Shown piece by piece: positions 9,338-25,664 of a stretch of 64,000 nt of DNA (position 1 is the stretch's first letter; the number at the start of each line of letters is the position of its first letter). Position numbers and translations under genes: made by a program. The notes under the pieces are model-generated. The model saw only the letters and a list, made by a program, of their open reading frames with translations. It did no database searches and had not been told where the DNA came from. Source of the stretch: Acidisarcina sp. (GTDB lineage Bacteria; Acidobacteriota; Terriglobia; Terriglobales; Acidobacteriaceae); contig DATLIY010000007.1 of NCBI GenBank assembly GCA_035539175.1, positions 806,001 to 870,000 on the forward strand, written 5' to 3'.

Positions 9338-11362
9338 CTACATCACTTCCGGAGCGGTCACGCCCATCCAGCCAAGCGCCTGAATCAATTCACGCTGCGC
9401 AATCGCAGCGGTGGCCAGCAGCAGTTGCTTCCTGGCCGGGTCCTCCTCCGTCAGGATGTGGTGGCGGTGGTAGAAGTTGTTGAATTCCTGCGCCAGTTGA
9501 AATGCGTGCTTCGCCAGGTAGGCGGGCTCGGCCGTGGCAATGCACTGCTCCACCAGCAGGGTTCGCTTGGCAGCCCTCACCCAGAGCGACCAGATGTCTT
9601 CCGCACCTTCGGCAGCCAGGTAGGCGTTCGCGCCCTCGGCACTAAACTCAGCCAACACCTCCTCGGGCGTCGTCCCGGCCTTGCGGAAGATGTTGCGCGC
9701 GCGCACGACCGCATACTGCACATATGGCCCGGTTTCACCTTCGAAGCTCAACGCATCCTTGAAGTCAAAGGCGATCACGGAATTGCGCGTGTACTTCAGC
9801 ATGAAATAGCGCAAGGCTCCGACGGCAATCTCCTGCGCAATCTGGTTGCGCTCATCTTCTTCGCGCTCGGTCTGGCGGCTGTCCACTTCCCTCTTCGCGG
9901 CCTCCACCAGCTTGTCGATCAGATCATCTGCCTTGACTCCAAAGCCCTTGCGCCCGGAGACCTCGATGAATGGCCGGCTCCGGTCCGCCTCTGCCACCTG
10001 GTAGCCCAGTTCCGTGGCACAACGCGGCGTCAGCGCCACCATCTCGTAGGAGAAGTGCGTGTAGTGATCCGCCTCCGCTGTATAGCCCAGCCCACGCAGC
10101 GCTTCGATCACAATGCTTTGGGGATCGGACTGGCGGCTGTCGATTACGTTGTAGATCGCCTGAGCCCCGCCGAAATGCGGATGCTGCGCCTCACCGTGCT
10201 CGGCGGAGATCCAGCACTCGCGGTCGGCATAGGAGAAGAAGCGCAGATACCCGAAGTCGCGGCCCAGCAGCCCGAACTTCCACAGATGGTAGGCAATGTC
10301 CTTGCCTACATAGGTGACGGTGCCGTTGGAGCGCACGATCACCTTGGCGTCTTCATCGGGTCCGGCTTCGGCGTCGCCATTCCCGGCGAGTCCCTTCTCT
10401 TCCGCATCCGCGGTGGGCTCGCTGCGGTTACCCGCACGTTTCATCACCCAGCAACCCTTGTTCTTGCCTTCCGTCTCGTGGTAAAGCACGCCCTTTGCCT
10501 TGAGCTGCTCAAAGGCCAGTTCCCAGAACTTCAGGTGCAGAATCTCGCTCTCCCGCGGCAGAAAGTCGTACTCGATATCCAGCCGGAGCATGGTTTCCAG
10601 ATGCCGCCGCAGCACAGCCGTGGAGAAGATCTCCGCGATTTCTGCGGTCTCGTTGCCGCCCTCTTCCAAAAGGTGCAGGGTGGCCAGCCGGATCTGCTTC
10701 TTCTGCTGCTTCTCCTCGTCGCTGCCCTCGTCATACCAGGCGGAAACGCGGGCATAGAGATCCCAGCAGTAATAGTCGATGCGTTCGCCGCGCGTTTGCA
10801 GCAGGGCCAGCAGCGCCTTCACCTCGTGAAAGGATAGCTTTTCCAGATGCTGCAATCCGACGACAACATCGGCCACCTGCACTCCAGTGTTGTCGATGTA
10901 GTTCTGCACATCTACTTTTTGTCCGGCCGCACGCAACAGGCGCACAAACGTGTCGCCAAGGATCGCGTTACGCAGGTGCCCGACGTGTGCCGCTTTATTG
11001 GGATTGATGCTGGTGTGCTCGACGAGCACGTGGGGGCCGCTGGCTGGAACCGTTGTTCCCTCCCGGGTGAAGGCCAATACAGCCGCAGCGCGATCGAGGT
11101 GAGCGTTGATGTAGCCTGCTCCCGCCACCTCAAACGAGGCAAAACCCGGCAGCGGCGCCAACTCTGCGACCAGCTCTTCGGCGATCTTTCGCGGAGCCTT
11201 CTTCAGCCGCCTGGCGAGCTCAAAGGCCACCGGCAGCGCATACTCGCCAAAGCGAATCTCCGGTGGCTGCTCGATGGCGAGGTTCGCCAATTCTATGCCG
11301 TACTTGCTCTTTAGAACGGAGCGAAGCCGCTCCAGAAGAATTTGCTGCTGCTTTAGATACAC
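9338..11362 (-). CDS. argS: Arginyl-tRNA synthetase
   Basis: A class I aminoacyl-tRNA synthetase that charges tRNA(Arg). The 674-residue protein has the N-terminal additional domain, the HIGH-type motif HVGHLRNAILGD at about residue 126, a Rossmann fold interrupted by a lysine/acidic-rich insert (about 310-345, GKNKGCWV followed by an Asp/Glu/Ala stretch), and the DALR anticodon-binding domain at the C-terminus (GPYVQYAVVRARNI). The start is GTG at 11360-11362. It is divergent from metG, so the two synthetase genes share a 180-base control region. Confidence 0.95.
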   Translation of the reverse strand: MYLKQQQILLERLRSVLKSKYGIELANLAIEQPPEIRFGEYALPVAFELARRLKKAPRKIAEELVAELAPLPGFASFEVAGAGYINAHLDRAAAVLAFTREGTTVPASGPHVLVEHTSINPNKAAHVGHLRNAILGDTFVRLLRAAGQKVDVQNYIDNTGVQVADVVVGLQHLEKLSFHEVKALLALLQTRGERIDYYCWDLYARVSAWYDEGSDEEKQQKKQIRLATLHLLEEGGNETAEIAEIFSTAVLRRHLETMLRLDIEYDFLPRESEILHLKFWELAFEQLKAKGVLYHETEGKNKGCWVMKRAGNRSEPTADAEEKGLAGNGDAEAGPDEDAKVIVRSNGTVTYVGKDIAYHLWKFGLLGRDFGYLRFFSYADRECWISAEHGEAQHPHFGGAQAIYNVIDSRQSDPQSIVIEALRGLGYTAEADHYTHFSYEMVALTPRCATELGYQVAEADRSRPFIEVSGRKGFGVKADDLIDKLVEAAKREVDSRQTEREEDERNQIAQEIAVGALRYFMLKYTRNSVIAFDFKDALSFEGETGPYVQYAVVRARNIFRKAGTTPEEVLAEFSAEGANAYLAAEGAEDIWSLWVRAAKRTLLVEQCIATAEPAYLAKHAFQLAQEFNNFYHRHHILTEEDPARKQLLLATAAIAQRELIQALGWMGVTAPEVM

Positions 11363-23562: not shown

Positions 23563-24102
23563 TTATGCGGTACGGCGGTTCCGGCCTGTCGCCATCTCCC
23601 GAACCTGGTTCAGGAAGATCGAACGCTGCATCGCATCCAATTGGCATGCATAAGACGCCAGCTCTGCCAGAAATGGATCGGCGAAGATCGATTGGGTTTC
23701 TTCCTGACGATGGCTCCGGCTATCCCGCAGCAGATCGCAGATATTGACCTCGAGAGCATCTGCCAGGCGCTGCAGCGACGACAACGTCGGGCATGCCTTA
23801 CCATTCTCGATCTTCGAAATGTACGTGCGAGGAACCTGCATCCTCCCCGCCAATTGACGCTGGCTCAGGTTGCGACCCCGGCGAATATCACGCACGGCAC
23901 GCGCGACCTGGGGGCTGCCATCCGGTTCTGGCGCTTCCATGCTGGGAACGACCAGTTGTGGTGCTTTGGGTTGCGGTTCTTCTAATTCAAGTGGTTTGTG
24001 GCAGCGCCGGCAAAGCGAGTTCGCTGTTCTGAACTGCACCAGACTGCAATGATCGCAACGTAAAACCTCGCGTGCCTCGACACTAGCTAAGGTAGTTGCC
24101 AT
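23563..24102 (-). CDS. XRE-family transcriptional regulator with N-terminal zinc ribbon
   Basis: A 179-residue protein. Residues 16-34 carry CDHC and CRRC, a compact zinc-ribbon-like knuckle. A proline-rich linker follows, then a Cro/C1-type helix-turn-helix (about 66-122: LSQRQLAGRMQVPRTYISKIENG). A helical tail completes it. The frame is open 66 codons upstream, but ATG 24102 starts at a natural N-terminus. A TTGACA lies upstream on the minus strand, and beyond it is an array of CGGGA elements shared with the divergent GT87-like gene. It may be autoregulated. Its target is not known. Confidence 0.85.
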   Translation of the reverse strand: MATTLASVEAREVLRCDHCSLVQFRTANSLCRRCHKPLELEEPQPKAPQLVVPSMEAPEPDGSPQVARAVRDIRRGRNLSQRQLAGRMQVPRTYISKIENGKACPTLSSLQRLADALEVNICDLLRDSRSHRQEETQSIFADPFLAELASYACQLDAMQRSIFLNQVREMATGRNRRTA

Positions 24103-24229
24103 AAGTTGTACGGAGCGCCAGAGCGGACGCTCGGGCGATTGCCAGCATTGTATGCCGGGGAATCGCCATCCCTGTTTACTGTCGAGGCAAGGTACCTTTC
24201 TTGTCAAGTGGAAACTGTGATTCGAGCAT

Positions 24230-24273
24230 AAAAATCCCGAAAAAAACGGGACAACTCCGGGAAAAACCGGGAT
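24230..24273. promoter_or_regulatory. Phased CGGGA/A-tract array, candidate operator
   Basis: Four copies of CGGGA in 38 bases: one inverted (TCCCG, 24235-24239) and three direct at 24247, 24258 and 24268, which is a 10-11 base helical repeat. They are separated by runs of 5-7 adenines (24230-24234, 24240-24246, 24262-24266). The first pair forms the palindrome TCCCG-A7-CGGGA. The array lies between the divergent XRE regulator and GT87-like genes, so it is a candidate binding site for that regulator. Confidence 0.5.
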
Positions 24274-24300
24274 AGATATCGCAACGCAATACCGCGGCAC

Positions 24301-24328
24301 TTTGTTTGCATGAAGTTGGCGCTATAGT
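24301..24328 (+). promoter_or_regulatory. Weak candidate promoter of the GT87-like gene
   Basis: TATAGT (24323-24328) is a fair -10 box. TTTGTT 16 bases upstream is a poor -35. It lies 30 bases downstream of the CGGGA array and about 56 bases before the ATG I chose, so it fits regulation by that array. Confidence 0.3.
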
Positions 24329-24383
24329 GAGAATCGCGGCATCCCCATGCCGGGAACGGAGCCGGCGCGTCCCTCGCGAAGCC

Positions 24384-25664
24384 ATGGACAAACAACGATT
24401 CCGCGCGCAAGCCATGGTTCTGCTCTTCGTCTTCGCCACCCTGTGCTTCTTTCTGCGTGGACTCTACGGACTGCGGTCTCCAGTCGACTTCATCCCGGTC
24501 TATGCGGGCGCGCGCTGCCTGGTCGTGGGCTGTAATCCATACGACACCGATCAACTGGATGCGCTCTACAAGCAGCAAGGGGTTCCGGATAGCGATCTGT
24601 ATGGCTGGGACAGCTCGCTTCCCGTTTACCCTCCATCGGCGCTGCTGGTTCTCGCTCCGCTGGGCGCGCTGAAGTACACAACCGCCCGAGTCTGCTGGTT
24701 CCTGCTGATTGGAGCGCTGTATGTTACGGCGGCAGGCACGATTCTGCAATTATGCCCACCGCCGCACAGGCTGCTCGCAGTGGTGCTTTGCTCCTGGCTG
24801 CTCATCCGCAGCAACAAGCTCATCTTCATGGGCCAGCCGGCCACTCTGGCAATCGCCCTGTTGGCGATAGGCACGGTCCTGTTGCTCCGAAAACGCCTTT
24901 CCGGATTCGCCGCCCTTTGCCTGATCCTCAGCCTCGCAGTCAAGCCGCATATTGGGCTTCTGGTGGTGCTCTATTTGGCGGTGCGCGGAGTGCAACGCAG
25001 ATATGCCATCACGGCCCTGGCAGGAGCGATGGGAATGCTGCTTCTCGGAGGTGCGATTCTGTATAGCCGCCCGATCAGCGCGCACTGGGTTGGCGATCTC
25101 AAGACAAACATCGTATCCGCGGCACTGCCGGGAAGGCCCGCCGATCCACGCCCACATCTGGACTGGGTGCCCCAGGCAGATCTGCAGGCGGTCTTCAGCA
25201 TCTTTACGCCGGATCAGGCCACGTATAACAGGCTTAGTTACACAGCCTCGCTGATTCTTTTCTCGCTGTGGCTGCTCGGGCTGCGCCGCGCGGGAAGAAG
25301 CTTCGACGCACATCTGGTTGCGCTCGCAGCCATCCTCTGCATCACCATTCTGGCGATCTACCACACTGCCACGGATCTGGGTGTGCTGATGCTGGCTATT
25401 CCGGCAACGGTAGTCCTCTGGAATCGCAACCGCCGTCTGGGAGGAGTTGCGGCGGCGGCGCTTTTTCTTGTTCTGTCACCGCTGCAGCGGATCCTGCAAT
25501 TCCAGTTTCTTTCCCATCCGCGGTGGCAGCCTGTGCTGGATAGTCCCTGGCTCTACACGCTGTTGTTGCGGCAACAGGTGCTGCTTCTCCTGCTCCTGAC
25601 GTGCGTCTACCTTACCGCTTTGTTTGCTGTGCGGATGCAGGAGGAAGCGCCCGCATCCGCATAG
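24384..25664 (+). CDS. Polytopic membrane protein, GT87/DUF2029-like
   Basis: A 426-residue protein with about ten hydrophobic helices. It starts with a membrane span followed by DFIPVYAGARCL and a short periplasmic loop with VYPPSALL, the layout seen in GT87-type (DUF2029) polyprenyl-phosphate-dependent mannosyltransferase-like proteins. The donor and acceptor are not predictable. Frames upstream of the ATG at 24384 are arginine-rich and improbable. It stands alone, divergent from the zinc-ribbon regulator. Confidence 0.75.
   Translation: MDKQRFRAQAMVLLFVFATLCFFLRGLYGLRSPVDFIPVYAGARCLVVGCNPYDTDQLDALYKQQGVPDSDLYGWDSSLPVYPPSALLVLAPLGALKYTTARVCWFLLIGALYVTAAGTILQLCPPPHRLLAVVLCSWLLIRSNKLIFMGQPATLAIALLAIGTVLLLRKRLSGFAALCLILSLAVKPHIGLLVVLYLAVRGVQRRYAITALAGAMGMLLLGGAILYSRPISAHWVGDLKTNIVSAALPGRPADPRPHLDWVPQADLQAVFSIFTPDQATYNRLSYTASLILFSLWLLGLRRAGRSFDAHLVALAAILCITILAIYHTATDLGVLMLAIPATVVLWNRNRRLGGVAAAALFLVLSPLQRILQFQFLSHPRWQPVLDSPWLYTLLLRQQVLLLLLLTCVYLTALFAVRMQEEAPASA

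Follow-up and report, generated by a model that had tools for sequence, protein, structure and literature searches.

Between two divergent genes in a 64,000-nucleotide stretch of Acidisarcina DNA (the window) lies a compact cluster of CGGGA-type repeats and A-runs. What does this cluster do, and are its words or its spacing the feature that matters? The plus strand from 24230 to 24272 reads A5 TCCCG A7 CGGGA CAACT CCGGGA AAAA CCGGGA. The first-pass annotation had described four CGGGA elements at 10–12 base spacing with A5–A7 runs between them. The spacing is as described, with element starts 12, 11 and 10 bp apart, but three elements are CGGGA (24247–24251, 24258–24262 and 24268–24272) and the fourth is inverted (TCCCG, 24235–24239). 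A-runs fill two of the three gaps, A7 at 24240–24246 and A5 at 24262–24266, but the middle gap between CGGGA elements (24252–24257) has no A-run, and an additional A5 (24230–24234) lies outside the four elements. The site can also be viewed as two inverted-repeat 17-mers 21 bp apart, TCCCG-N7-CGGGA and TCCGG-N7-CGGGA. The flanking genes, an XRE regulator and a glycosyltransferase-like gene, were correctly recognized.

The putative promoter of the XRE gene and its surroundings

The features of the region are as follows, with the centers of the T-runs given relative to the −35 of the XRE promoter.

23563..24102, minus strand: XRE (HTH_3) regulator gene with CxxC...CxxC N-terminus; start codon 24102–24100
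24112..24124, minus strand: leader element GCTCTGGCGCTCC, predicted hairpin just 5′ of the XRE start
24178..24183, minus strand: putative −10 hexamer GACAGT, spacer 18, placed by its position against relatives such as CATGGT
24189..24198, no strand: palindrome AAGGTACCTT in the −35/−10 spacer, candidate XRE operator from GGTA/TACC enrichment
24202..24207, minus strand: putative −35 hexamer TTGACA of the XRE promoter, TTGAC being anchored in ortholog loci
24212..24214, minus strand: TTT, the T-run nearest the −35, center −6
24230..24234, minus strand: T5 run, center −25
24240..24246, minus strand: T7 run, center −36
24262..24266, minus strand: T5 run, center −57
24235..24272, no strand: GC-rich CGGGA/TCCCG spacers between the T-runs (the reported motif), compared with the C and G flanks of the family profile
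24384..25664, plus strand: GT87-like membrane gene, divergent from XRE

Transcription of the XRE gene would start downstream of this −35. A sigma-70 consensus scan of 24000–24500 called no promoter. Among the 74 orthologous loci used below the −35 is TTGACA in 62 and TTGACT in 12.

We compared the site with an own-genome sample of ~463 kb, comprising the window and twenty 20-kb stretches, using as a measure of curvature a simple sum of AA/TT steps at 10.5-bp phase, which is not a full bend model. The site ranks first of ~462,000 positions at widths of 45, 85 and 125 bp, scoring 11.5, 13.2 and 14.4 against 9.0, 10.9 and 14.1 for the respective runners-up. By a score for T-runs on one strand it is only tenth in the sample. 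Another phased site of the genome, at 11212–11260 of locus L122, has TTTCCCGC-like words three times at ~10–12 bp.

The repeated word itself is uncommon. TCCCGA7CGGGA with up to three mismatches has two matches in the window, one exact and one with three, against 0.09 expected. A search of the genome for other copies, which had been proposed as a check, found one more exact 17-mer, 25 bp before the start of rpoZ. This copy is probably due to chance, because it is missing from the rpoZ locus of the same-genus relative, and TCCCG-A7-CGGGA was rejected as an operator on these grounds. The looser TCCSGN7CSGGA occurs at 41 places in the genome against seven for the reversed control; of the 39 outside the site, the rpoZ copy alone has an A7/T7 core. 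Within the window this type of pattern, with one mismatch allowed, has 26 matches against 14.2 expected, for which the sole account we offer is composition. CCSGGTTTTTCCSGG with two mismatches has 37 matches in the genome against 19 for its control.

Phased T-runs in the orthologs

A search with the XRE protein at E up to 0.001 gave matches in 135 of 150 genomes, its own included. Those beyond its own family are weaker, and some span the HTH only. Terriglobus, Edaphobacter, Granulicella, Bryocella, Acidobacterium and Paracidobacterium are among the named relatives in the genome collection, and they mark the family as being of Acidobacteriaceae type. Ninety good matches were taken to their loci, of which 86 had a TTGAC followed by GCTCTGG to serve as anchor. 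L059, L075 and L084 dropped out with no −35, and L085 with no GCTCTGG. Before counting, L058 was removed as wrongly anchored, L019, L029 and L033 were re-anchored at a second TTGACA, and L086 was flagged and kept. The first set is made up of 74 anchored loci of the same family. A second set, not used before and rich in Edaphobacter, Granulicella and Terriglobus, comprised 66 loci, of which nine duplicates, four without a −35 and one without GCTCTGG were removed; L273 is not among the remaining 52. It was rerun with 51, L261 appearing to be the same record as L033 under another anchor. Start codons chosen by the script are unsure in several loci. The loci share ancestry, so that none of the counts below are of independent events.

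In the first set, runs of at least three T nucleotides in the XRE sense form eight peaks spaced by ~10.6 bp and in register with the −35, at about −80, −69, −59, −47, −37, −25, −17 and −5. Autocorrelation within sequences is elevated at lags 11, 21 and 31–32 and depressed in between, with z = 9.5 at lag 11 and 10.4 at lag 21 relative to dinucleotide shuffles. The best period is 10.7 with an amplitude of 8.7, where a random-phase control given the same treatment reached a maximum of 2.6 in 500, and a further control at period 10.6 only reached 2.3 in 200. The second set gave a period of 10.4 and an amplitude of 5.6 (control maximum 2.5). Its periodicity is clearest in the proximal half, the distal peaks are weak and the −17 slot is missing; its mean profile correlates with that of the first set at 0.58. 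If the eight peaks are treated as slots, which were thus defined on the same data that they describe, loci of the first set fill 4.4 on average and those of the second 3.3. The Acidisarcina array fills four, and it too is missing the −17 tract.

The runs have a marked strand bias. There are 304 T-runs against 27 A-runs in the first set, and 170 against 24 in the second. Curvature alone does not account for this, since pure curvature needs no single strand, and the bias therefore leaves room for a directional reader.

Other upstream regions served as controls. Those of rpoZ and acc from the same family, 30 of each (26 and 28 with T-runs), have no T-run autocorrelation. No T-array was seen by eye in three rRNA upstream regions, 16S having been located in three of the five genomes tried. 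Nine other callable promoters of the Acidisarcina genome have no phase, a control that is weak because nine are too few to exclude a general trend. The window has no Rfam match at the gathering cut-off, and a term-limited search of the open-access literature returned nothing on this element in Acidobacteria.

To compare shape with sequence we scored a fixed 85 bp ending at the −35 for phased AA/TT against its own locus. In the first set 64 of 74 arrays fall within the top 1% and 71 within the top 5%, with a median z of 5.1. Together with the first rank in the own genome this agrees with the earlier view of the site as bent, helically phased and unlike its surroundings. For the second set the corresponding numbers are 25 and 33 of 51, with eight arrays outside the top half. 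In a sister family of 11 loci they are three and four, and 0–2 of the eight slots are filled. Two of these loci, L095 and L096, have their chosen start upstream of GCTCTGG; excluding both still leaves 0–2 slots and three of nine in the top 1%.

Despite this strong phasing, the median ungapped pairwise identity of the arrays in both sets is 0.33. What is conserved is therefore shape and phase, not CGGGA. The annotation had made presence of the motif upstream of orthologous regulator genes a test of its proposal, and there neither CGGGA nor TCCCG-A7-CGGGA is conserved, while the phased T-runs are. One relative of the same genus, with an XRE protein 91% identical, already has a degraded inverted repeat, with its T-runs still in register. 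In the family profile most T-runs are preceded by G and followed by C, with GC-rich spacers, and CGGGA/TCCCG would be this genome's version of those spacers. The arrays do have some sequence in common, because octamers such as GTTTTCTC occur in 26 loci against 0.7 in shuffles. A tandem unit GGTTTTCKCCSGGTTTTCKCC with up to two mismatches was matched 20 times in 80 genomes, its reversed control four times; 13 of the 20 matches fall at the XRE locus and seven outside it. As a strict consensus it misses the Acidisarcina array itself. A regulon of this unit was rejected.

A probable curved upstream region and its alternatives

The computations show phase, register with the promoter, conservation across genera with little conservation of sequence, and near-restriction of the tandem unit to this locus. 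Those properties of a curved upstream region that can be read from sequence are present: an A/T repeat of ~10.5 bp, register with the core promoter (in the second set mainly in the proximal half), and predicted curvature well above background by the AA/TT phase sum, both in rank within the genome and for the arrays within their loci. On balance we think it probable that the repeats belong to an intrinsically curved region of phased T-runs upstream of the XRE gene's own promoter, and an UP-like upstream region is the best reading of the array. T-runs that return with each helical turn before the promoter of this regulator are conserved in a family whose members live mostly in soil, and the DNA there is probably bent in aid of starting the gene.

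The T-runs, read in the XRE sense, would all face the same side of the helix, one run to each of as many as eight turns, and the GC-rich spacers (CGGGA/TCCCG in this genome) would face the other side. If the DNA actually bends, the bend could lay upstream DNA back on RNA polymerase, against the alpha-CTD or the body of the enzyme. This might raise initiation at the XRE gene, perhaps in a manner sensitive to supercoiling. By analogy with known promoters, the most likely role is that of curved DNA aiding RNA polymerase at the XRE promoter, where the steps from curvature to transcription would be of this kind.

Phased A-tracts do occur upstream of promoters, in cases with an activating effect, as described in PMC9825172, PMC2753651 and PMC4081817. 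Those of Synechocystis share the phase of the start site and the core promoter elements (PMC9825172). At IS5-glpFK three promoter-proximal A-tracts matter and a 5-bp insert abolishes activation; that paper also mentions unpublished preliminary evidence that the alpha-CTD is not needed (PMC2753651). The phased A-boxes of sabA are proposed as alpha-CTD sites in PMC4081817, and in Campylobacter sigma-70 promoters a periodic A/T-rich pattern replaces a clear −35 (PMC3656092). The present array resembles Synechocystis, Campylobacter and IS5-glpFK in that a promoter is preceded by short A/T runs that are periodic or have helical spacing. It differs in scale and setting. The pattern is genome-wide in Synechocystis and Campylobacter and the bend of IS5 lies in an inserted element, whereas here it was seen at the promoter of one gene, extends over as many as eight turns with its T-runs mainly on a single strand, lies in DNA of ~60% GC, and is kept across many genera with drift of sequence. 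Like an UP element or UP-like A-boxes it places A/T runs directly before the −35, some of them spaced by 10–11 bp, but it reaches much further upstream (PMC4081817, which refers to Ross 1993, Estrem 1998 and Aiyar 1998 for UP elements). The UP consensus as quoted there does not match our site by eye, with the start placed as above; GCTCGAATCACAG stands in the place of the AT-rich subsite.

A more specific version of the curved-region reading can be put forward tentatively, though we would not expect it to hold in full. The array might be a shape-only element, with T-tracts on one strand for as many as eight turns in −35 register, dedicated to one zinc-ribbon XRE regulator, its shape selected while its sequence drifts. 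It might offer RNA polymerase a surface to wrap on, or might sense supercoiling, setting the level of the regulator together with the conserved hairpin leader. At this single promoter, the shape and helical phase of the DNA appear to have been conserved in nature across many genera while the bases drift. Natural orthologous arrays can be swapped, and the role of phased A-tracts at promoters, a question of long standing, is therefore testable. The locus also carries a warning, in that a motif found in one genome, here CGGGA, can be a by-product of structural constraint.

The annotation had taken the repeats for a multi-site operator of the XRE protein, which in its developed form would oligomerize along one face of the DNA and autoregulate its own gene. 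The array does adjoin the regulator's gene, where the tandem unit is also concentrated, and it has a regular GG-T-run-CC unit, the strand polarity noted above and shared octamers. Yet the recognition helix VPRTY[IV]SKIEN (positions 90–100) is nearly invariant in both families, the exceptions being I/V at 95 and a value of 0.97 at position 98, whereas the array occurs largely in just one of the two. An operator array is thereby left unsupported. The degradation of the CGGGA palindrome within the genus and the low identity of the arrays also count against it, and we regard this reading as unlikely. A better candidate for the XRE operator than the array may be the GGTA-type element in the promoter spacer, where GGTA/TACC is found in 59 of 113 cluster representatives against 24 expected from shuffles.

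It is quite unlikely that another wrapping or nucleoid protein, neither RNA polymerase nor XRE, reads the T-tracts and silences or activates the gene. The narrow minor grooves of phased A-tracts would suit such proteins (PMC9825172), and the strand polarity of the runs would fit. Such a protein should have further sites, however, and this one is the extreme of the 463 kb sampled.

The RcoLS20 switch of pLS20 has a comparable layout, with an HTH regulator gene, a divergent gene and periodic A/T tracts between them forming a statically bent spacer (PMC4207663). By this model two XRE operators could close a short repression loop, with the array as its curved spacer. The promoter spacer is enriched in GGTA-type words, TGGTTC and GTTAC are each found upstream in 27% of loci against 5% and 10% in shuffles, and in some clades short GGTTC/GTTAC words can be seen by eye on both sides of the array. 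But the best match between spacer and upstream region averages 6.80 of 9 within the same genome, and 6.73 when cross-paired and 6.70 when shuffled. In pLS20 the 75-bp bent spacer is flanked by two proven operators (PMC4207663), whereas no paired operators were detected here, and a loop of this kind is very unlikely.

Could the array instead belong to the divergent gene, as its promoter or a purine-rich leader? A divergent gene with an HD domain is present in 59 of the 74 loci, with an extrapolated start 37–261 bp, usually 60–115 bp, upstream of the −35. This places the start within or just beyond the distal array, and the octamers GTTTTCTC/TTTTCTCC read GAGAAAAC/GGAGAAAA in the HD sense. The phase, however, keeps register with the XRE −35, and the 15 loci whose fetched flank yielded no HD gene retain it, with a best period of 10.6 in these and in the 59 loci alike. 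The Acidisarcina genome gave no HD match, an empty answer that shows little by itself. We consider this reading highly improbable.

A terminator or attenuator hairpin, TCCCG-T7-CGGGA then T5 on the minus strand, was picked up by a pattern scan at 24252–24234, but it was rejected and can hardly be credited, as 24000–24500 holds two terminator-like sites against 0.7 expected in shuffles, the stem is lost in the same-genus relative and the site lies upstream of the putative promoter.

A predicted leader hairpin and neighboring sequences

Downstream of the putative promoter, the XRE mRNA leader (24100–24180, minus strand) has two predicted hairpins. GCTCTGG, which recurs in the two families of the order, occupies the loop of the second hairpin together with its 3′ arm. 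Its presence in all 137 loci compared follows from its use as an anchor; among the 90 loci first collected, one (L085) lacks it in the stretch examined. The predicted folding energy of the Acidisarcina leader is −29.6 kcal/mol, with z = −2.28. Support for its pairs beyond shuffles is modest at some positions and none at others, in counts where the L100 row is aligned on a later copy of GCTCTGG. In the sister family GCTCTGG lies 22–31 bp before the chosen start in nine of 11 loci. L095 and L096 are the other two; their GCTCTGG follows the −35 by 43 bp, which matches their relatives, but the start chosen by the script precedes it. Twelve class-level XRE loci showed no such word immediately before the gene.

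Residues 7–134 of the XRE protein, the CxxC pairs included, match the TIGR00270 model of an archaeal multiprotein bridging factor below its cut-off, at 35.4 of 110 bits. The HD-domain gene that diverges from XRE in 59 of the 74 loci (among L013–L088) has a Pfam HD match just below the cut-off, and in Acidisarcina its place is taken by GT87. In loci of Terriglobus/Edaphobacter type (L215–L254) inspection by eye shows an AAGTTACTACTTTGGTTCC-like sequence upstream of the array, ~45–70 bp before the −35, and AGTAACC in the promoter spacer. Many of the rpoZ upstream regions (L123–L152) contain, again by eye, GCGTCTAA, which resembles an ECF-sigma −10 element.
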